This document shows, one piece after another, positions 454-59,789 of a DNA stretch of 64,000 nucleotides (positions are counted from its first letter, which is position 1; every line of letters starts with the position of its first letter). The DNA lies in NCBI RefSeq assembly GCF_014207595.1, contig NZ_JACHGY010000001.1:372001-436000 (forward strand), read 5' to 3'. This DNA comes from Algisphaera agarilytica (GTDB lineage Bacteria > Planctomycetota > Phycisphaerae > Phycisphaerales > Phycisphaeraceae). The notes under the pieces are model-generated. The model was not told where the DNA came from and did no database searches. It was given only the letters and a program-made list of their open reading frames with translations. The translations under genes were made by a program, and so were the position numbers.

Positions 454-470
454 CGTTTGATTGGCTGTTC

Positions 471-591
471 TTCCCCCTCTCCCCCCGGGAGAGGGCCGGG
501 GTGAGGGTAGCCGAGGTACCAACACGCTGGCCTTTGATCAATAAACTCTAAACCGCCTTCACCCTAACCCTCTCACGAAGGGAGAGGGACC
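471..591. repeat. Pair of inverted CCCTCTCCC/GGGAGAGGG palindromic elements
   Basis: Two half-elements face each other in the gap between rarA and the L,D-transpeptidase gene. The left one (475-495) is CCCTCTCCC-CCC-GGGAGAGGG followed by a GGGGTGAGGG tail. The right one (561-590) is the reverse arrangement: a CACCCT stretch, then CCCTCTC-ACGAA-GGGAGAGGG. The reverse complement of the right half aligns with the left half over about 35 bases. A related element lies inside queE (7330-7487). It may also act as a transcription terminator, but there is no clear T-run. Confidence 0.75.
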
Positions 592-616
592 AAGCCAACC
601 CCCAAAGACTCCGCCT

Positions 617-6450: not shown

Positions 6451-6560
6451 GGGTCTGGCCTTGGGGCGAACGGGACATGATAGCCCAAGCCGTGGCCTTC
6501 GGGAATCGGACGATTCTCAATCGATTCCGGGGGGCCGGGCACCGCGTACAATCGTGGGCC

Positions 6561-7109
6561 ATGCCTCCGTATTCCCCCGAACCCGAAAACCCGGCCGACG
6601 GCTCGGGCCCCGCCACCGCCTACATCGCCCTGGGCTCGAACCTCGGCGACCGCCGGGCCCACCTCGACGCCGCCCTGGCCGCGATCGGCGAGCTGCCCGG
6701 CGTCGGCGAAGTCACGCCCAGCACGTACTACGAGACCGCCCCCGTCGGCCCGCAGGACCAGGGCATGTTCCTCAACGCCGCCGCCCGTGTCGCCACCGCG
6801 AGCACCCCGGAAGCGTTCCTGGAGCAGCTCCTCACCCTGGAACGTCGGCTCGGCCGACCGCCCCGCGAGGAACGCCGGCACTGGGGTCCGCGCGAGATCG
6901 ACCTCGACCTGCTGCTCCACGGCAACACCGTACTGGACCTGCCCGGCCTGACACTCCCCCACCCCCGACTCCACGAACGGGCCTTCGTCCTCCGCCCGCT
7001 CTGCGACATCGCCGCGGAAGTCCCCCACCCGCTGTTCCGCCAGACGATGCGAGAGTTGTTGGCCGAGGTCGAGCGTGACGCCGAGGCGCAGGCGGAGGTG
7101 TCGCCGTGA
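6561..7109 (+). CDS. folK: 2-amino-4-hydroxy-6-hydroxymethyldihydropteridine pyrophosphokinase (HPPK)
   Basis: 182 residues. It has the HPPK hallmarks Y-I-A-L-G-S-N-L-G-D-R at residues 20-30, Y-Y-E-T-A-P-V-G-P-Q-D-Q, the signature region H-W-G-P-R-E-I-D-L-D-L-L-L and H-P-R-L-H-E-R-A-F-V. It transfers pyrophosphate from ATP to the pterin in folate synthesis. The ATG at 6561 is chosen because residues upstream of it do not look conserved. Its TGA overlaps the GTG start of queE (GTGA), so the two genes are probably co-translated; both enzymes belong to GTP-derived heterocycle pathways. Confidence 0.92.
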   Translation: MPPYSPEPENPADGSGPATAYIALGSNLGDRRAHLDAALAAIGELPGVGEVTPSTYYETAPVGPQDQGMFLNAAARVATASTPEAFLEQLLTLERRLGRPPREERRHWGPREIDLDLLLHGNTVLDLPGLTLPHPRLHERAFVLRPLCDIAAEVPHPLFRQTMRELLAEVERDAEAQAEVSP

Positions 7110-7987
7110 CCAAGCCCGCGAAATCCCTCGACGAGCAGACGCTGCTGATCAACGAGATTTTTTATTCGGTGCAGGGCGAATCGACCTACGCCGGGCTGCC
7201 CTGCGTGTTCGTTCGGCTGCGCGGGTGCCACCTGCGGTGTGCGTATTGCGACACCGAGTACGCCTTCCACGAGGGCGAGAAGCAGAGCTTGCAGGCCATT
7301 ATCGATGAGGTCGAGTCGGTCTCCGCAACCAACCCCTCCCCCCCCGGGGGAGGTGGCCCGCGAAGCGGGTCGGAGGGGGATGTTGGTGTCGTGATGGCGG
7401 CCGGAGATGAAGATCAATCCGAGCCAAACAGCGCTCCGACCGCCCTCACCCCATCCCTCTCCCGGGGGGAGAGGGGGTTAAACCAAACGCAATCAAGCTG
7501 CGACCTCGTCGAGATCACCGGCGGCGAGCCCCTGCTCCAACGCAACGTCCACCCGCTCATGACCGCCCTCTGCGACGCGGGCAAGACCGTGCTCATCGAG
7601 ACCAGCGGGGCGTGCGACATCTCGGTGTGTGACCCGCGCGTCATCCGCATCATGGACCTCAAGACCCCCGGCAGTGGCGAGGCCCACCGCAACGACTGGA
7701 ACAATATCGCCCACCTCAACGAGCGTGACGAGGTGAAGTTTGTCCTCACCAGCCGGGGCGACTACGAGTGGATGGTCAAGCAGCTTGAGGAGCACCGGCT
7801 GCACGAGCGGGTGAATGCCGTGCTGGTCAGCGCGGTGCATAAGGTCGAGCCGGGCAAGGAGATCGCGGGGTGTCTGGGGCTCTCGATCACCGAGCTGGCC
7901 GGATGGCTGTTGCAAGACCGGCTGCCCGTCCGCCTCCAGACCCAGCTGCACAAACTGATCTGGGACCCGTCCGCGCGCGGCGTGTAA
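7106..7987 (+). CDS. queE: 7-carboxy-7-deazaguanine synthase, with an in-frame repeat insertion
   Basis: 293 residues, about 60 to 80 longer than typical QueE. It is a radical SAM enzyme: the cluster motif is C41-x3-C45-x2-C48 within R-G-C-H-L-R-C-A-Y-C-D-T, followed by E-I-T-G-G-E-P-L-L-Q. It converts carboxytetrahydropterin to CDG on the way to queuosine. Residues about 73-130 (Pro/Gly/Ser/Arg-rich) are encoded by CCCTCTCCC-family palindromic DNA and sit in a loop before E-I-T-G-G; the frame is kept and all catalytic motifs are present. The GTG start overlaps the folK stop. queD follows after a different repeat element. Confidence 0.92.
   Translation: MTKPAKSLDEQTLLINEIFYSVQGESTYAGLPCVFVRLRGCHLRCAYCDTEYAFHEGEKQSLQAIIDEVESVSATNPSPPGGGGPRSGSEGDVGVVMAAGDEDQSEPNSAPTALTPSLSRGERGLNQTQSSCDLVEITGGEPLLQRNVHPLMTALCDAGKTVLIETSGACDISVCDPRVIRIMDLKTPGSGEAHRNDWNNIAHLNERDEVKFVLTSRGDYEWMVKQLEEHRLHERVNAVLVSAVHKVEPGKEIAGCLGLSITELAGWLLQDRLPVRLQTQLHKLIWDPSARGV
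7330..7487. repeat. Palindromic repeat elements inside the queE coding region
   Basis: About 158 bases within queE hold two palindromic units. The first (7331-7383) is a nested structure: CCTCCCCCC/GGGGGAGG, then GCCCGC-GAA-GCGGGT, then a closing GGAGGGGGATGTT. The second (7441-7480) is CCCTCACCCCATCCCTCTCCC-GGGGGGAGAGGG, the same family as the pair at 471-591. The length preserves the reading frame and no stop codon occurs in the queE frame. Flanking codons match normal QueE. Confidence 0.82.
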
Positions 7988-8002
7988 CGCCGCGCCCTTG
8001 GC

Positions 8003-8072
8003 GAGTGATGAGTGAACAGTGACGAGTGATGAGTTCAGTTCCACTCATCACTGCTCACTCGTCACTCATCAC
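8003..8072. repeat. GTGATGA-family inverted heptamer repeat between queE and queD
   Basis: The left arm (8003-8033) runs as GAGTGATGAGTGA, then ACAGTGACGAGTGATGAG; the right arm (8043-8072) is its near-perfect reverse complement with tandem CACTCAT/CGTCACT units, separated by 9 bases. The unit has a period of 7. It fills nearly the whole gap between queE and queD and could fold into a stem of about 30 bp in the transcript. The same element follows queD (8448-8520) and lies inside purL (44951-45036). Confidence 0.85.
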
Positions 8073-8085
8073 TTAAACTACGTTT

Positions 8086-8460
8086 ATGAAGACCCGCATC
8101 ATCCGTAAGTTCAGTTTCGACGCTGCCCACCAGCTCTTCACCATGCCCGAGTGGCACAAGTGCCGGCGGATGCACGGGCACACCTACCTCTGCGAGGTCG
8201 TCTGCGAGGGCGAGGTCGATCCCGAGGTTGGTTTCTTCCTGGACTACGGCGACCTAAAAACCAAGATCGACCCCATCGTTCAGCAACTCGACCACCACTA
8301 CCTCAACGACATCCCCGGCCTGCAGGTCCCCACCGCCGAGATGATCGCCAAGTGGATCTACGAAAAACTCAAACCCGAATTGCCCTCGCTGGCGATCCTG
8401 CGGCTTTGGGAAACGCCGAACAACGGCGTGGAATACGCGCCTTCGGCGAGTGATGCGTGA
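8086..8460 (+). CDS. queD: 6-carboxy-5,6,7,8-tetrahydropterin synthase
   Basis: 124 residues, normal length for QueD of the 6-pyruvoyl-tetrahydropterin synthase family. The zinc ligands are visible: F-D-A-A-H (H15) and M-H-G-H-T-Y (H30, H32). The active-site region has L-D-H-H-Y-L-N-D and a late W-E-T-P. It makes carboxytetrahydropterin, the substrate of QueE, so it belongs functionally with the gene upstream. The last four residues and the stop codon (A-S-D-A-stop) are encoded by the left end of a GTGATGA-family repeat, so the native end has been replaced or extended by it. Confidence 0.92.
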   Translation: MKTRIIRKFSFDAAHQLFTMPEWHKCRRMHGHTYLCEVVCEGEVDPEVGFFLDYGDLKTKIDPIVQQLDHHYLNDIPGLQVPTAEMIAKWIYEKLKPELPSLAILRLWETPNNGVEYAPSASDA

Positions 8461-8520
8461 ACAGTGACGAGTGATGAGTTCTTTTTTCACTCATCACTGT
8501 TCACTCGTTACTCATCACTC
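8448..8520. repeat. GTGATGA-family inverted heptamer repeat that holds the queD stop codon
   Basis: Left arm 8448-8478 and right arm 8488-8520 are near-perfect reverse complements built of GTGATGA/GTGAACA/GTGACGA units; the spacer is TTCTTTTTT. The queD stop lies in the left arm, and the stop codon of the converging SLC13 gene begins at 8521, directly after the right arm, so the element is the entire intergenic space. The hairpin could serve as a bidirectional terminator. Confidence 0.85.
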
Positions 8521-11489: not shown

Positions 11490-12788
11490 GTGGAACACCC
11501 CCAGCAAGCCATCTCGTCCCCTTTCCGCAAGGGTTTCTCGCCCCAGACCGCGGTCGATGCGCTGTACCTGCACCTGCCGTTTTGCTTCCACAAATGCCAC
11601 TACTGCGATTTCTACAGCGTGGTCGAGCAGCCCGGGCATGACCGCCAGGCCGCATTCACCGAAGCCCTGATCGCCGAGCTACGCCAGTGGGCCGAGCACC
11701 TGGACACACTCGCCCCCCAAACGATCTTCGCCGGGGGCGGCACGCCGACGTACCTCCGCCCCGAACTGTGGGGCCAACTGCTCGAAGCGATGCACCGCCT
11801 GGGTCTGCTTGATCGGTGCGAGGAGTTCACGGTCGAAGCCAACCCCGAAACGGTGACCCCCGAGCTCATGCAGCAACTCGCCGCCGGCGGGGTCAACCGC
11901 GTGTCGATCGGGGCCCAATCGTTTCAGCGTGAATCGCTCCAGGCCCTCGAGCGTTGGCACGACCCCGACAACGTGCCGCGCGCGGTCGAGGCTTGCCGGG
12001 CTGCGGGACTCGACAACTTTTCGCTCGACCTGATATTCGCCATCCCCGGCCAAACCCTGGACATGCTGGACGACGACCTGTCCCGACTGGTCGCGCTGAG
12101 CCCTAAGCACCTCTCGACCTACGGCCTGACCTACGAGCCCAACACCGCCCTCACCGCCCGCCTCCGCGTCGGCAAGGTCACGCCCATCGACGAAGACACC
12201 CAGCGCGAGATGTACCAGCACGTGCTCGACCGCTTGGAAGCCGAGGGGTTTGAGCACTACGAGGTTTCGAACTGGGCGAGGACGGGGATTTCGGATTTGG
12301 GATTGGGGATTTCGGATTTACCAGACGCAAGCGTTGGCGTAGAGCAACCGCCAGCGAGCGATTCGGTTCCCGAAATCCGAAATCCAAAATCCGAAATCTC
12401 CTCCCGCTGCCTCCACAACCTCGCCTACTGGCAGAACCGCAACTGGCTCGGAGCGGGGCCCGCCGCGGCGTCGCACCTCGACGGCCAACGCTGGCGCAAC
12501 ACACCCAACCTCGCGACCTACCTCGCCTCCTGCCCCGACCCGGAAACCCAGGACCACGAGCAACTCCCCGAACACGAACGCACCGGCGAACGGCTGATGC
12601 TCGGCCTGCGGCTTTCGGACGGCCTACCGTTGGATTGGATCGAAACACATCTGCCCGCCGACGACCGCCGACGCCGAGCGATCGATGAGATGATCGACAT
12701 CGACATGCTCGAACGCACCGACACGCACCTGCGTCTGACCCGCCGCGGCCTGTTCGTTGCCGATAGCGTGATCGCCAAACTCCTCTAG
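11490..12788 (+). CDS. hemW: HemW-like radical SAM protein (coproporphyrinogen III oxidase family), with in-frame repeat insertion
   Basis: 432 residues. It has L-Y-L-H-L-P-F-C, then C-x3-C-x2-C-D-F (4Fe-4S/SAM motif), F-A-G-G-G-T-P-T, and E-A-N-P-E-T with S-I-G-A-Q-S-F, all typical of HemW. The C-terminal HemN domain follows (H-N-L-A-Y-W near residue 310, then G-A-G-P-A-A-A-S-H). HemW is thought to insert or traffic heme rather than oxidise coproporphyrinogen. About 41 residues (266-306) between Y-E-V-S-N-W-A-R and C-L-H-N-L come from a GGATTTC-family palindrome; in relatives only about four residues connect these motifs. The GTG start gives an ordinary N-terminus. Confidence 0.9.
   Translation: MEHPQQAISSPFRKGFSPQTAVDALYLHLPFCFHKCHYCDFYSVVEQPGHDRQAAFTEALIAELRQWAEHLDTLAPQTIFAGGGTPTYLRPELWGQLLEAMHRLGLLDRCEEFTVEANPETVTPELMQQLAAGGVNRVSIGAQSFQRESLQALERWHDPDNVPRAVEACRAAGLDNFSLDLIFAIPGQTLDMLDDDLSRLVALSPKHLSTYGLTYEPNTALTARLRVGKVTPIDEDTQREMYQHVLDRLEAEGFEHYEVSNWARTGISDLGLGISDLPDASVGVEQPPASDSVPEIRNPKSEISSRCLHNLAYWQNRNWLGAGPAAASHLDGQRWRNTPNLATYLASCPDPETQDHEQLPEHERTGERLMLGLRLSDGLPLDWIETHLPADDRRRRAIDEMIDIDMLERTDTHLRLTRRGLFVADSVIAKLL
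12284..12399. repeat. GGATTTC-family inverted heptamer repeat inside hemW
   Basis: The left arm (12284-12319) is GGGGATTTCGGATTT repeated twice with a GGGATT linker; the right arm (12370-12399) is CGAAATC-CGAAATC-CAAAATC-CGAAATC. They are near-perfect reverse complements enclosing about 50 bases of unique DNA. The unit period is 7 bases. The element keeps the hemW frame open. Confidence 0.87.
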
Positions 12789-31269: not shown

Positions 31270-31325
31270 GAGAGTCTCGTTTCGTCGCCAAGCGACAGAG
31301 CGTTTTATGGGTTGAAGAATGCTTA

Positions 31326-31351
31326 TTTCCGAAATCAAAAATCCGAAATCT
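31326..31351. repeat. GAAATC heptamer-repeat tract (single arm) between the two DUF4139 genes
   Basis: TTTCCGAAATC-AAAAATCC-GAAATCT, one arm of the GGATTTC family seen in hemW. No matching second arm is present nearby. It directly follows the stop codon side of copy 2. Confidence 0.7.
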
Positions 31352-43012: not shown

Positions 43013-46000
43013 ATGACCGCCCTCGATCACGCCGTTTCTCCCGCCACCCGCCGTGTCCTCCGCGTTGAAATCCGCCCCAAACCCGGCGAAATCGACGCCC
43101 ACGGCCACGCCACGCTGGGCCTCGCCCAGACCCACCTCGGCCCCGCCGTCACCGCCGCCCACACCACCGCGGTCTTCCTGATCGAAGCCCCGCTCACCGA
43201 CGAACAGTCGCAGCAGGTCGCTGGCGAGTTGCTGTCCGACCCGGTCAACCAAGTCGCCGTGATCGGTGCCGAGGACGCCGCGCCGGGTTCCGCCGTGGCC
43301 GAGGTGCACTACCTGCCCGGCGTGATGGACCCCGTGGCCGAGTCCACCCAGGACGCCATCCGCGAGATGCTGCCCAGCCTCGGCAAGGACGAGGTCCAGG
43401 TCCGCACCGGCACCCGCTTCGACTTCGAGACCTCCTCGCCGATCGACGACGCCAAGCTCCGCGCCTTCGCCGAGTCGCAGCTCGCCAACACGGTCGTACA
43501 GTCGGTCCACCTGGAGCACTACCACCCCGCCGAGTTCGTCCACGGCACGCCCTACGACTTCAACCTCACCCACATCCCCATCCGCGACCTCGACGACGCC
43601 GCGCTCGAGGTGATGTCGCGTGAGGCCCACCTGTTCCTCTCGCTCGATGAGATGCGCGAGATCCAGAACTACTACCGCGACGCCGGCCGTGAACCCACCG
43701 ACGTCGAGCTCGAGACCCTCGCCCAGACCTGGTCCGAGCACTGCGTGCACAAGACGCTCAAGTCCACCGTGTCGTACACCGGCTCGTCCGAGTCGCTGGA
43801 CATCTTCCGCGGCAAGGCCGGGCACGAGGTCAACGACGACGGGACCGTCACCATCCACAACCTCCTCAAGACCACCGTCGCCGCCGCGACCTTCGACCTC
43901 AAGGACAAGTGGAAAGGCACCGACCGCGAAGACTGGCTCGTCAGCGTCTTCGACGACAACGCCGGCATCGTGAAATTCGACGACACCGACGGCGTCGCGA
44001 TCAAAGTCGAAACCCACAACCACCCCTCGGCCCTCGAGCCCTACGGCGGCGCCGCCACCGGCATCGGCGGATGCATCCGCGACATCATGGGAACCGGCCT
44101 CGCCGCCAAACCCATCGCCAACACCGACACTTTCTGCGTCGCCTTCCCCGATGCCGACCCCGAAGACCTGCCCAATGGCGTGATCCATCCCAAGCGCACG
44201 CTCCAACGCGTCGTCGACGGTGTCCGTGACTACGGCAACCGCATGGGCATCCCCACCGTCAACGGTGCGGTCTACTTCCACGACGACTTCGTCGCCAACC
44301 CGCTGGTCTACGCCGGCTGCGTCGGCATCATCCCCCTCGACAAGTGCTTCGGCACCGCCCAGCCCGGCGACCGGATCATCATCCTCGGCGGCGCGACCGG
44401 CCGTGACGGCATCCACGGCGCTACGTTCAGTTCCGCCGAGCTCACCGACACCCACGCCGACGAGTTCAGCCACGCCGTGCAGATCGGCAACGCGATCACC
44501 GAGAAGAAAACCCTCGACGTCATCCTCCAGGCCCGCGACTACGTCGACCCCCAAACCAACGAAGCCCGCTGCCTGTTCACCGCGATCAGTGACTGCGGCG
44601 CAGGCGGGTTCAGCTCCGCCGTCGGCGAGATGGCCGAGAAGGTCGGCGCCAAAGTCACCCTCGACACCGCCCCGACCAAGTACGACGGCCTGACCTACAC
44701 CGAGGTCTGGATCAGCGAAGCCCAGGAACGCATGCCCCTGGCCGTGCCCGCCGAGAACGTCGAAGCGCTGCGCCAGCTCGCCGAAGCCGAGGACGTGCCC
44801 TTCTGCGACCTCGGCGAATTCGGCTACGAAGAAGACGGCGTACCCACCCTCCAACTCACCTGGCACGGCCAGGAAGTCGGCAAGCTCGCCATGCCGTTCA
44901 TGCACGACGGCATCCCCACGCCGACGCGCCAGGCAACGTGGCCTGCGGCCACGAGTGATGAGTCCGCAGTGAACAGTGATGAGTGGAAAGGCAACGCCTC
45001 CGCCGCACTCGGCACTGTTCACTCGTCCCTCGTCACTCTGCTATCGCACCCCAACCTCGCCAGCAAGCACTGGATCATCCGCCAGTACGACCACGAGGTC
45101 CAGGCCGGTAGCGTCGTGAAGCCGCTCGTCGGCCCCGGGCAGGACGGCCCGTCCGACGGCGCGGTGCTACGTCCCAAACTCGACTCGAACAAGGGCGTGA
45201 GCCTCAGCAACGGCCTCGCACCGTACCTCTCGGAGAAAGCCACCGCCGACGGGACCGCGACCGATGGCGATTCGTACTGGGCGACCCTCGCAGCGCTCGA
45301 CGAAGCCGTACGAAATGCCGTGTGCGTCGGTGCCGACCCGCGTCACCTCGCCATCCTCGACAACTTCTGCTGGCCGCGCTGCGACGACCCGGCCCAGCTC
45401 GGGTCGCTCGTCCGCGCCGCCGAGGCGTGCTACGACGGCGCGATGGCCTACGAAACGCCCTTCGTCTCCGGCAAGGACTCGCTGTCCAACCAGTTCACCA
45501 CCGAAGACGGGAAGCTCATCACCATCCCGCCGACGATGCTGATCTCGGCCATGGGCATGGTCGACGACATCACCAAGGCCCGCACGATGGACGCCAAGGC
45601 CGCGGGCAACGCGCTGCTCGTCGTCGGCAACACCACCCCGAACCTCGGCGGCTCGCACCTCGCCGCTTGCGGCCTCGCGCCCGCCACCGCCGACCGCCGC
45701 ATCCCGCGCGTCGACCTCGAAGCCGGCCCGAAACACGCCGCCGCCGTCGCCGCGCTGATCGATCAGCGCCTCGTCGCCTCGGCCCACGACTGCTCCGAGG
45801 GTGGCCTACTGCCCGCCGCCGCCGAGATGGCTTTCGCCGGCCGCATCGGCCTCGATCTCGACCTCACCAACCTGCCCGCCGCATCGGGCACCGAACTCGA
45901 CCTGACCGCCAAGTGTTTCGCCGAGACCCCCAGCCGCTACCTGCTGGAGATCGAGCCGGGCAAACTCGACGCCGCGATCAAGTCGCTACGCGACGCGGGC

Positions 46001-54383: not shown

Positions 54384-54390
54384 TCCGGTT

Positions 54391-54417
54391 TTCGGATTTC
54401 GGATTTCGGATTTCGGA
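54391..54417. repeat. GGATTTC heptamer tandem repeat after the sugar importer
   Basis: TTCGGAT repeated almost four times in perfect tandem (period 7). It is one arm of the GGATTTC family; no opposing arm lies nearby. It starts just after the stop of the MalG-type gene, before a terminator. Confidence 0.85.
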
Positions 54418-54437
54418 CAGAATCAAACAACTGAAAG

Positions 54438-56948: not shown

Positions 56949-59789
56949 TTAGCCGCGACGACGACCCATCATGGCGATGCTGCCCAGGCCAAGCAGGATC
57001 AACGAAGCGGGCTCGGGGACCGCCGCGATGCTGACGCTGCCGCCCACCAGCAGATCGCTGGTGTTCAGAACGACCGGTCCCGAGTTGATCGACGAGAAGT
57101 TGCCCGTGAGCGCCGGGATATCGAAGTCCAGCAGGTCGAAGGTTTGGCCGACCACCAGGCTCTCGATATCGGTAAAGGTCAGGTTGAGCTGGCCGTCCAA
57201 GTCCAGAAGGCCGCCGACGACATCGACCGTCTCGAACTCCGTGAGGCTGTCAATGGTGAGGCCGATCACGCTGGTCTCCTCGAGGTCGAGGTTGCCCGAA
57301 GCCAAGGAGATGCCGCCGTTGATGGTGCCGGCGTTAACGACCGATCCGCCGAGGTTGACGCCTTGTTGCACAAGGACGGCCGGGGCGGCGTCCGCAGTAA
57401 TAAGGCCACTGATCTGGTTCACGATGTTACCGCTAAAGGTCGCTCCGGGGGCGGGGGCAAAGAGGCGGATGCCCGCGTCGACCGGCTGGTCGCCGCTGCC
57501 CGCGATCAGGCCGGCGTTCACAATCGATCCAAGCTGGATGTCGTCAGACACAGTACCCACCTGAACCGATACACCCGACCCTGCGCCACCGCGGGCATCG
57601 ATGCTGCCCGAGGCGAGGTTGGTGAGGCTGAAGCTGTCGGCGGTGCCGTCGACGTAGAACGTGCCGTTGCGTTGACGCCCGGTCGCAAGGATGTCGCCGG
57701 CGTTGTTGACCGTAAGGCCGATGCCGTCGAGGTTGAACGCACGGCTATCGGAGCTGATGGTGCCGGTGTTGTTCACCACGCCGCCGGTGTGGTCACCACC
57801 GCCTGCGGGCGTGGGGTTGCCGAAGTACACACCGTTATGCACACCGGAGATGGTGCCGGCATTGTTGAGCGTGCCCTGGAAGTTGACACCGTTGACCGCA
57901 CGGAAGCCGCCGACCGTACCGTTCGCTCCCTCGCTGGAAATGTCGCCGGTGTTGGTAATCGTGCCGGTGAACAGGCCGGTCGTGGTTCCGTCGAGAGCGC
58001 CGCCAACGCGGGTCCGTTCGAGGCGGATGCCGTCACCCGCGGTCGCCAAGCCGGCGCCCGCGTTGCCGCGGCCGAGAAGCTGACCAGAGTTATTGATGGT
58101 GAAGTCGTTGCCGGCTTCGTCGAGCTCAACCGAGAAGCCCGCACCTTCCAGCCCTTCGCCGGCGTCGATGACACCGCCGTTGTTGAGGGTGAAGTCTTGA
58201 GCGGTCGAGTCGGCGTAGACCGTGCCGTTGCGCTGATTACCGGTGCCGAGGATCAGGCCGTCGTTGTTGACGGTCAGGCCGGTGCCGTCGATGTTCAGGG
58301 CACGGCTGTTCGAGCTGATGATGCCGGTGTTGTTAACCACACCGTTGGAGTAGTCGGCACCTTGGCTGTTGACGGCGTTGCCGAAGTACAAGCCGTTCTG
58401 AACACCGGAGATGACGCCGGAGTTATTCAGCCCGCCGTCGAACGAGATGCCGTTGACAAAGCGGACGCCGGCGACGGTCCCGTTAGCGCCTTCGGAGGCG
58501 ATGGTGCCGCTGTTACTTAGGTTCACCTCGGCGGTACCGATGTTCCCGACGTTACCGATGCGAACGCCGTCACCCGCTGCCGAGGAGCCAGCGCTCGCGT
58601 TGCCGCGGCCCTGGATGGTCCCTGCGTTGGTCAGGCCGAAGGTATTGGCCCCGTCCACCGCCCCGCCGATCTCAGCGCCAAAGCCCGAGCCTTCGTTGCC
58701 TTCACCTGCATCGATGGTTCCGCCCGTAAGGTTGTTGACCGTGTAATCGTCGGCGGTGCCGTCGACATAGAACGTGCCGTTACGCTGGTTACCGGTGCCG
58801 ATAATCTCGCCGGCGTTATTAACCGTCAAGCCGATGCCGTCGAGGTTGAACGCGCGGCTATCGGAGCTGATGGTGCCGGTGTTGTTCACCACGCCGTCGG
58901 TGTGGTCGCCGCCGCCCGCGGGCGTGGGGTTACCGAAATACACGCCGTTCTGGGTGCCGGTGATCGTGCCGGAGTTGTCCAGTTGTCCCTGAAAACTGAC
59001 ACCATTGACGGCACGGAAGCCGCCGACGGTGCCATTGGCACCTTCCGAAGTGATCTCACCGGTATTGGTTATCGATCCCGTAAACAGACCGGTCGTGGTG
59101 CCGTCGAGGGCGCCGCCAGCGCGGGTCCGTTCTAGACGGATGCCGTCACCCGCAGTCGCGGCACCGGCGGAGGCATTGCCCCGGCCGGCGATGGTGCCGG
59201 CGTTGGTGATACTGGCGTCGGTGCCGCCCGCAGCCAGCTCGAGCGAGATGCCCGCGCCGTCGTTGTGTTGGCCCGCGTCGATGGTGCCGCCTTGCTGATT
59301 ATCGATCGAAAAGTTGTTGGCTGAAATATTGGAGTAGATCGTGCCGTTGCGCTGATCGCCGGTGCCGATAATCTGGCCGGCGTTACTCACCGCAACCGTG
59401 CCGCCGATGTTGATGGCCCGGCTGTCGGAACGGATGATGCCGGGACCGAGGTTGGTGACAGTGCCCGAGCCCAGGCCGTTCACGAAGTTGATGGCGTTGA
59501 GGCCACCTTCGATGTTACCTGCGTTGATGACGGTCGTATCGGCCGCGGTGATGATCGCATTGAGCTCCGCCGTGATGAAGCCCCCCTGGCCGTTACTGAT
59601 TACCACGCCGTCCGCTCCCGCGGGTATGTCAACCGCGTTGTCTTGCAGAACCTGAATCCAGGTGGACGACTCGTCGGTGACCGTAACGGTGTCGTCCGCC
59701 GATGGCGAGACCTGTGCGAGCGAGACGGGCGCGATGACGGACATCAGCCCGCAACTCCATAGCAAACGTTTGGTCGTAAATGAAATCAT
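56949..59789 (-). CDS. PEP-CTERM-anchored surface protein with long beta-helix-like repeats
   Basis: 946 residues. The N-terminal signal peptide (about residues 1-26, ending S-L-A-Q) is followed by about four repeats of 180-190 residues rich in Gly, Asn, Thr and Ser: N-N-T-G-T-I-S-S, G-A-G-x-x-V-x-x and N-A-G-x-I-x-G-x-G-N-Q-R-N-G-T are recurrent. Parallel beta-helix architecture is likely (inference). The C-terminus has V-P-E-P-A-S, a hydrophobic helix and G-R-R-R-G, the PEP-CTERM sorting signal for exosortase processing. AAGGA lies about 11 bases before the ATG at 59789. It belongs to exported surface or matrix proteins. Confidence 0.9.
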   Translation of the reverse strand: MISFTTKRLLWSCGLMSVIAPVSLAQVSPSADDTVTVTDESSTWIQVLQDNAVDIPAGADGVVISNGQGGFITAELNAIITAADTTVINAGNIEGGLNAINFVNGLGSGTVTNLGPGIIRSDSRAINIGGTVAVSNAGQIIGTGDQRNGTIYSNISANNFSIDNQQGGTIDAGQHNDGAGISLELAAGGTDASITNAGTIAGRGNASAGAATAGDGIRLERTRAGGALDGTTTGLFTGSITNTGEITSEGANGTVGGFRAVNGVSFQGQLDNSGTITGTQNGVYFGNPTPAGGGDHTDGVVNNTGTISSDSRAFNLDGIGLTVNNAGEIIGTGNQRNGTFYVDGTADDYTVNNLTGGTIDAGEGNEGSGFGAEIGGAVDGANTFGLTNAGTIQGRGNASAGSSAAGDGVRIGNVGNIGTAEVNLSNSGTIASEGANGTVAGVRFVNGISFDGGLNNSGVISGVQNGLYFGNAVNSQGADYSNGVVNNTGIISSNSRALNIDGTGLTVNNDGLILGTGNQRNGTVYADSTAQDFTLNNGGVIDAGEGLEGAGFSVELDEAGNDFTINNSGQLLGRGNAGAGLATAGDGIRLERTRVGGALDGTTTGLFTGTITNTGDISSEGANGTVGGFRAVNGVNFQGTLNNAGTISGVHNGVYFGNPTPAGGGDHTGGVVNNTGTISSDSRAFNLDGIGLTVNNAGDILATGRQRNGTFYVDGTADSFSLTNLASGSIDARGGAGSGVSVQVGTVSDDIQLGSIVNAGLIAGSGDQPVDAGIRLFAPAPGATFSGNIVNQISGLITADAAPAVLVQQGVNLGGSVVNAGTINGGISLASGNLDLEETSVIGLTIDSLTEFETVDVVGGLLDLDGQLNLTFTDIESLVVGQTFDLLDFDIPALTGNFSSINSGPVVLNTSDLLVGGSVSIAAVPEPASLILLGLGSIAMMGRRRG
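57640..59380. repeat. Tandem coding repeats in the PEP-CTERM gene, with an A-B-A order
   Basis: The near-identical stretch around GCGGGTCCGT occurs at 58008 and 59121, a spacing of 1,113 bases (371 codons, two repeat units). The units at those two places are far more alike to each other than to the unit between them. Confidence 0.8.

Follow-up and report, generated by a model that had tools for sequence, protein, structure and literature searches.

How does the gene for an ancient queuosine enzyme come to carry a palindromic repeat within its reading frame, and what would become of the enzyme? The question is raised by queE of Algisphaera agarilytica, which lies in the window (i.e., the whole 64,000-nucleotide stretch of DNA analysed) of a 4.17-Mb genome in six contigs, referred to below as G000. 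Our reading, to which we give a probability of roughly 85%, is that a non-autonomous palindromic mobile element inserted in frame in queE and is tolerated in a permissive loop, with the enzyme still working. The window features needed for the argument are as follows; P, Q, R, and S are names that we coined for hairpin end types from comparison of the copies.

466..597, no strand: second copy of the element family in the window, Q>Q< (site 3), 132 bp, called intergenic
6477..7109, + strand: folK (HPPK; PF01288, TIGR01498), 5' of queE and overlapping its start
7106..7987, + strand: queE, 7-carboxy-7-deazaguanine synthase (open reading frame with GTG start, 293 aa, in-frame insert; TIGR04349)
7331..7485, + strand: palindromic composite element P>Q< in queE, ~155 bp, residues ~76-127, ends accurate to a few bases either way
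7330..7383, + strand: P end module (model R1, 77.4 bits; ranked 13th among the 33 retained P modules)
7380..7442, + strand: core between the P and Q ends, 63 bp
7439..7484, - strand: Q end module, CCCTCTCCC..GGGAGAGGG..GGGGTGAGGG (model R2, 64.6 bits; rank 36 of 67)
8086..8460, + strand: queD (TIGR03367, PF01242), 3' of queE

The queE gene and its insert

The queE product is identified as QueE by a whole-enzyme profile match together with C-x3-C-x2-C (C41/C45/C48) and TGGEP, the latter within EITGGEP at residues 136-142. In the profile search, it scored 268.6 bits against TIGR04349, below the model cut-off of 300; four insert-free QueE relatives scored 266.6-278.8 bits and thus likewise fell below 300, which rules out the insert as a spoiler of automatic annotation. 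The top QueE matches with named records came mostly from Phycisphaeraceae bacteria, plus other Planctomycetota. Upstream, the true start of folK probably lies further inside its called open reading frame.

Other repeats also occur in the window. A second palindromic family (ACTCATCACTGTTCACTCGTCACTCATCACT-like) is found at 7991-8073, 8436-8519, and 44941-45037; one of its copies lies between queE and queD, and another overlaps the queD 3' end. GGATTTCGGATTT-type repeats are present in both orientations at 12284-12401, 31320-31351, and 54390-54425, including an inverted pair at 12284/12370. Finally, long degenerate direct repeats with a spacing of ~560 bp (families D1-D4) fill positions 57316-59392 and possibly encode a repeat protein.

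A sequence-only reading of this DNA had placed an in-frame palindromic insertion at 7330-7487 of queE. The insertion is confirmed, with borders at approximately 7331-7485, as a member of a dispersed repeat family; however, the single CCCTCTCCC-type element proposed there is in fact a composite of two different hairpin ends, P and Q. From its outer to its inner side, the P module reads AACCCCTCC..GGGGGAGG, a small hairpin CCCGCGAAGCGGG, and GGAGGGGG. The P and Q ends, both detected with models trained without the queE copy, converge across the 63-bp core, which exceeds that of most P/Q copies by ~19 bp and differs from the core of each of the other 49 paired copies. CCCTCTCCC occurs five times in the window against 0.81 expected, a count reached in 0 of 100 shuffles. 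Folded as RNA, the insert (7329-7488) reaches -94.3 kcal/mol (z = -5.3; 0 of 200 shuffles), and as DNA it gives 64 aligned pieces across the same genome, itself counted.

The element, at ~155 bp, is not a multiple of three in length, and only one of its six frames is stop-free, the very frame that is used. Across the 50 paired copies of the family (see below), 115 of 300 frames (six per pair) are stop-free, so that an open in-frame insertion is not improbable; if lengths were random, its chance would be roughly one in eight. The sole other 155-bp pair in the genome, copy 50 (L002; L174:3822-3976; G000:C1:3121821-3121975), has a core equal in length to that of the queE element and is also the best match to the queE insert (80% over 144 bp), making it a possible sister copy. 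It sits in a stop-free stretch over which no gene was called, and a Pfam search of its translation gave no match.

The extra loop among QueE relatives

A set of 109 QueE loci, reduced to 86 distinct ones by dropping rows that shared identical last 200 residues, was used for comparison. The segment from AYCDTEYAF to EITGGEP spans 90 residues in the window QueE versus 32-40 in all 86 distinct relatives, i.e., 32 (59 relatives), 34 (18), 35 (3), 37 (5), and 40 (1). The alignment to relatives suggested by the sequence-only reading thus finds the extra loop missing throughout, and a non-repetitive extension of the same kind in distant homologues, which would have spoken against an insertion, was looked for and found in none of the 86. 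The gain of about 58 residues put forward there holds relative to the commonest loop length of 32 aa; relative to the five closest relatives (loop of 37 aa; 73-75% identical to the window QueE outside the insert), the gain is 53. At such identity among the closest sequences, the exact insert borders and the ancestral length of the loop can be placed only approximately. In the congeneric genome G002, the QueE loop (locus L051) is 34 aa long; G001, a second congener whose genome is 78% complete, gave no QueE match.

Integrity and predicted fold of QueE

As had been surmised, the reading frame and the catalytic motifs are retained. None of the 60 residues shared by at least 95% of the 86 relatives is lost from the window QueE; in a leave-one-out comparison of these near-invariant residues, 51 of the 86 relatives missed none and 35 missed at least one. 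A search for a second QueE in G000 returned a best other match of 43 bits, against 182 and 84 bits for the two halves of the gene itself. In all likelihood, the enzyme has kept its activity and remains subject to purifying selection.

An AlphaFold2 run of the window QueE on 54 sequences gave a model with a mean pLDDT of 85.6 and a pTM of 0.80. Its top six fold matches are solved QueE structures, including 5th5, 5tgs, 6nhl, and 4njg, with the QueE proteins of B. subtilis, E. coli, and B. multivorans matching best. Ten-residue pLDDT means are 85-98 in the core and 78-79 at the insert border and the C-terminus; values below 50 for at least three consecutive residues occur at residues 86-126 only. 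This stretch falls between a helix (62-75) and the strand leading into TGGEP (134-139), the site at which the insertion had been placed from sequence, and the confident core with a low-confidence insert bears out the expectation of a disordered loop. From this predicted disorder and the helix/strand position, the insert would be a disordered loop at the surface, clear of the conserved core.

A dispersed family of modular palindromes

Models for P, Q, and R ends were built from 24, 24, and 11 copies, respectively, leaving out the queE copy, and were run on the genome. Of 7390, 2347, and 8536 first-look candidates in the P, Q, and R searches, 150 each were scored, so that all copy numbers given here are lower bounds. 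Of the 66 P, 95 Q, and 52 R matches, we kept 33, 67, and 11, respectively; those dropped were mainly weaker overlaps with other module types, plus weak Q matches, seven of which were S-type in look on inspection. There are thus at least 111 P/Q/R modules at a minimum of 60 sites. Convergent pairs make up 50 of the 60 sites (19 Q/Q, 20 P/Q, and 11 P/R), 44 of them 130-139 bp long, and the other 10 sites are single or differently arranged. S-type ends, located with one DNA query, add 27 sites, two of which are common to the P/Q/R set, bringing the family to ~85 sites found, again a lower bound.

Within the P inner hairpin, a C-G pair is changed to G-C in 9 of 24 copies with pairing retained; of 17 pairs, just 1 is altered on both sides. 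In a search with stricter filters, P-module matches were obtained in 19 of 101 genomes, those above 48 bits being confined to G000, G015, and G038, the latter two belonging to a single other genus. Neither congener (G001, G002) had a P module at E 1e-4 in this search.

Gene calls were made with a codon-usage caller trained on the window, with homology support for the three interrupted genes. By these calls, 80 of the 85 sites are intergenic (55 of 60 P/Q/R sites; 26 of 27 S sites). The remaining five comprise two C-terminal tails and three in-frame copies inside genes. As the same caller assigns ~86% of the window to coding sequence, three intragenic sites of 85 (or five with the tails) are far below what random placement would give. 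Genes flanking the 55 intergenic sites run in the same direction in 31 cases, convergently in 20, and divergently in 4. The two tails, from copies 29 and 28, add ~44 and ~13 residues to the called genes L022:1420-2880 (- strand) and L004:145-1458 (+ strand), respectively.

In-frame copies in two further genes

Besides queE, the in-frame intragenic copies lie in queG and in the linker of a SASA-ParA fusion:

L169:564-1802 (G000:C1:3856450-3857688), - strand: queG (TIGR00276, above cut-off), with an in-frame Q>S< element in the loop that precedes GKIARYAWGDDYH
L157:579-2462, - strand: SASA carbohydrate esterase-ParA ATPase fusion (PF03629, PF13614), with a P/Q element in the linker

The SASA-ParA fusion is also encoded by both congeners, and its linker measures 112 aa in G000 versus 62 in G001 and 41 in G002. 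The copy spans 199 bp, and its two ends, at 52.2 and 34.7 bits, have the lowest scores among the retained modules of their kind. This points to an earlier insertion in which the hairpins have since degenerated but the reading frame is still open. Taking the three in-frame loci against two congeners, the segment is shorter in all five comparable cases of six.

The QueG loop is 71 aa long in G000 versus 30 in G001 and 28 in G002, with a range of 22-57 in 29 relatives. These come from 61 genomes searched, of which 57 matched and the best 30, G000 included, were compared. Of the 87 QueG positions shared by at least 90% of the 29 relatives, the G000 protein retains 85; when each relative was left out in turn, 14 missed at least three, 11 missed two, and 4 missed one or none. 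RNA of the QueG loop is far more stable than its shuffles in four of the 30 genomes (G000, G071, G020, and G028; z < -5, 0 of 200), and the other 26 loops, including those of both congeners, have z values of about -2 or above. The G071 loop (L194) holds the same type of element as G000, with convergent CCCTCTCCC ends, and the same DNA recurs in L090 (Planctomycetales bacterium ZRK34, complete genome, CP050848.1). The G020 (L185) and G028 (L196) loops hold palindromes of different sequence. For three further QueG loops (L192, L188, and L199), palindromes suspected by eye were rejected upon folding (z of +1.06, -0.65, and -1.99).

Differing sequences and the loops of the G000 congeners suggest that the QueG loop was hit independently in different genomes. 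That two of the three internal G000 copies lie in queuosine genes is a post hoc remark on n = 3 and may be chance. A broader and rather doubtful idea is that a small number of permissive loops in the Phycisphaerae, foremost the QueG loop before GKIARYAWGDDYH and here also that of QueE, are invaded time and again by palindromic elements of unrelated origin, which act as a standing supply of disordered linkers. If this were true, the two queuosine enzymes would be genuine hot spots, via target choice or tolerance, and inserts would be retained and reshaped as protein, beyond mere tolerance.

Putative mobility of the element

A PF01797 search found three Y1 transposase loci in the genome. One of these genes (L141:1348-1983, - strand) exceeds the RAYT NCBIfam cut-off (167.9 bits vs 80), and those at L142 and L143 are weaker RAYT relatives. 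Within ~1.5 kb on each side of the three Y1 genes, exact P/Q/R motifs occurred as scattered singles only, with no paired modules; a RAYT was hence rejected as the mover of the element since the one gene that passes the model nevertheless lacks adjoining paired P/Q/R modules. The start of the L141 RAYT and its adjoining open reading frames read VGTAHR/VGNAHPT/VGSAHPT, which suggests that this gene has a separate repeat family of its own.

With borders known to a few bases, the 50 pairs gave no sign of a target-site duplication (mean longest flank repeat of 3.64 vs 3.62 when flanks were re-paired), and AACCAA, which flanks the queE copy 154 bases apart, was discarded as a candidate since flank repeats are no commoner than upon re-pairing. 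A plasmid source was sought without a match in the plasmid collection. Nor is a GTAG/CGTC hairpin-foot tag a general feature: in 12-base end windows of the 111 modules, GTAG was seen twice, CTAC once, CGTC 5 times, and GACG 10 times.

Weighing the explanations

In the proposed mechanism, a ~155-bp element with two convergent hairpin ends would have been moved by a transposase and have inserted between the first helix of QueE and the strand leading into TGGEP. As the element frame is open and the reading frame is kept, ribosomes would read through, adding ~53 Pro/Gly/Ser-rich residues to QueE, and the insert would have survived because the QueE loop tolerates length changes. Genic insertions would mostly be purged by selection, with a few in-frame ones in permissive loops persisting. 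The element would thus be mobile, the insert translated as protein and presumably neutral, i.e., most likely a tolerated selfish insertion.

Were queE instead inactivated or decaying, with the element an insertion in a pseudogene left open by chance, ~53 residues inserted into a small enzyme would be in keeping with it, and the element in queG of the same pathway could mean relaxed selection on the whole pathway. Such a history is quite improbable given that all 60 near-invariant QueE residues are intact (85 of 87 in QueG), that the frames of both genes are open, and that folK and queD adjoining queE are still recognised by family models. The insert could also have been recruited, its loop or RNA hairpins now serving, e.g., as a binding segment or in translational pausing. 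The strong RNA fold within a coding region agrees with recruitment, as does the variable peripheral region E45-W67 of E. coli QueE, on which a second role of that enzyme, in cell division, depends (PMC11142719, in the part of the text available). That region, however, is closer to the cluster-binding loop, and a repeat origin is not known for it; moreover, the insert is found in one genome only when set against the 86 relatives, and its hairpins are near the family consensus, leaving no conservation to test. Recruitment is therefore judged improbable.

An extra loop ancestral to QueE, with no insertion at all, can draw on the slight variation of the CxxC-TGGEP segment (32-40 aa), but 0 of 86 distinct relatives exceed 40 aa and the insert DNA belongs to a dispersed repeat family, so that we give this account next to no credence. 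A many-copy repeat family could in principle give rise to an assembly artefact; here, none of the other 49 paired copies has the same core, the reading frame holds on either side of the insert, the site is on a 4.10-Mb contig, and two more in-frame cases exist in the same genome, making an artefact exceedingly unlikely. The reading to be preferred is that of a mobile palindromic element tolerated in frame by a working QueE.

Comparison with known systems

REPINs, as generally described, consist of two convergent hairpin ends around a short spacer, with no gene of their own and copies that are mostly non-coding. The present family is modular and REPIN/MITE-like. It resembles REPINs/BIMEs in that 50 of 60 G000 sites are convergent pairs, mostly intergenic, and differs from them in that the Y1 genes L141, L142, and L143 have no adjoining paired P/Q/R modules; unlike MITEs, it displays no target-site duplication, flank repeats not being in excess among the 50 pairs (borders to a few bases).

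In the accessible portion of PMC3733652, REPs tagged with GTAG or CGTC are described as palindromic repeats that in many families stand close together in opposite orientation and mainly between unidirectional or convergent genes, with some in open reading frames of known function; Planctomycetes are among the phyla mentioned. More than half of the intragenic REP inserts are dimers or groups encoding 20-30 residues, rising to 43-82 in Thauera and R. conorii (same portion of PMC3733652). The orientation bias of genes neighbouring the G000 copies resembles the pattern reported there. Unlike intragenic REPs, the queE insert encodes ~52 residues, and GTAG/CGTC appear at module ends in scattered cases only.

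For QueE itself, the available text of PMC11142719 describes E45-W67 of the E. coli enzyme as two peripheral helices between the cluster-binding loop and TGGEP. Deletions there still allowed Q-tRNA to be made, more weakly in two of three, and abolished filamentation (PMC11142719). The likeness to our case is an extra peripheral segment in the same general QueE region; the differences are the cell-division role and that no mobile-element origin is stated in the available text of that source.

A search of the literature (titles and abstract openings of the papers listed, with few subscription journals) found nothing on this family or on QueG-loop repeats, which is weak evidence of absence. The phenomenon resembles Rickettsia palindromic elements (RPEs) and intragenic REPs, and on that weak evidence this family and the QueG-loop repeats are apparently new. 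In-frame palindromic insertions are best known from Rickettsia, and G000, a planctomycete, has three. With shorter, insert-free congeneric counterparts where comparable, these three cases constitute a natural experiment in enzymes absorbing ~50 foreign residues, and the recurrent QueG-loop palindromes make the permissive-loop idea testable across genomes. QueE and QueG are both easy to read out, via queuosine in tRNA, in E. coli.

A close parallel is that with RPEs, described in the accessible parts of PMC2229807 and PMC10969869 as hairpin elements of ~105-150 bp in several families, both intergenic and in frame in genes for conserved proteins. A guanylate kinase carrying one is translated and active with altered substrate affinity, and of 12 homologues of RPEs carried by other Rickettsia species, 11 were reported inside open reading frames (PMC2229807, PMC10969869). 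Given these precedents and the intragenic REPs (PMC3733652), a palindromic element in an ancient enzyme is less unexpected than the sequence-only reading held, as far as the available texts go. Shared with RPEs is a palindromic element on the 100-150-bp scale in frame in protein genes (queE, queG, and the SASA-ParA linker). The hosts differ, being Planctomycetota, another phylum, rather than Rickettsia; the modular ends of G000 mix (P/Q, P/R, Q/Q, Q/S); and 3 of ~85 sites are in genes, plus 2 at gene ends. Judged by form and position against the RPE descriptions, the queE element most likely works as an RPE does.
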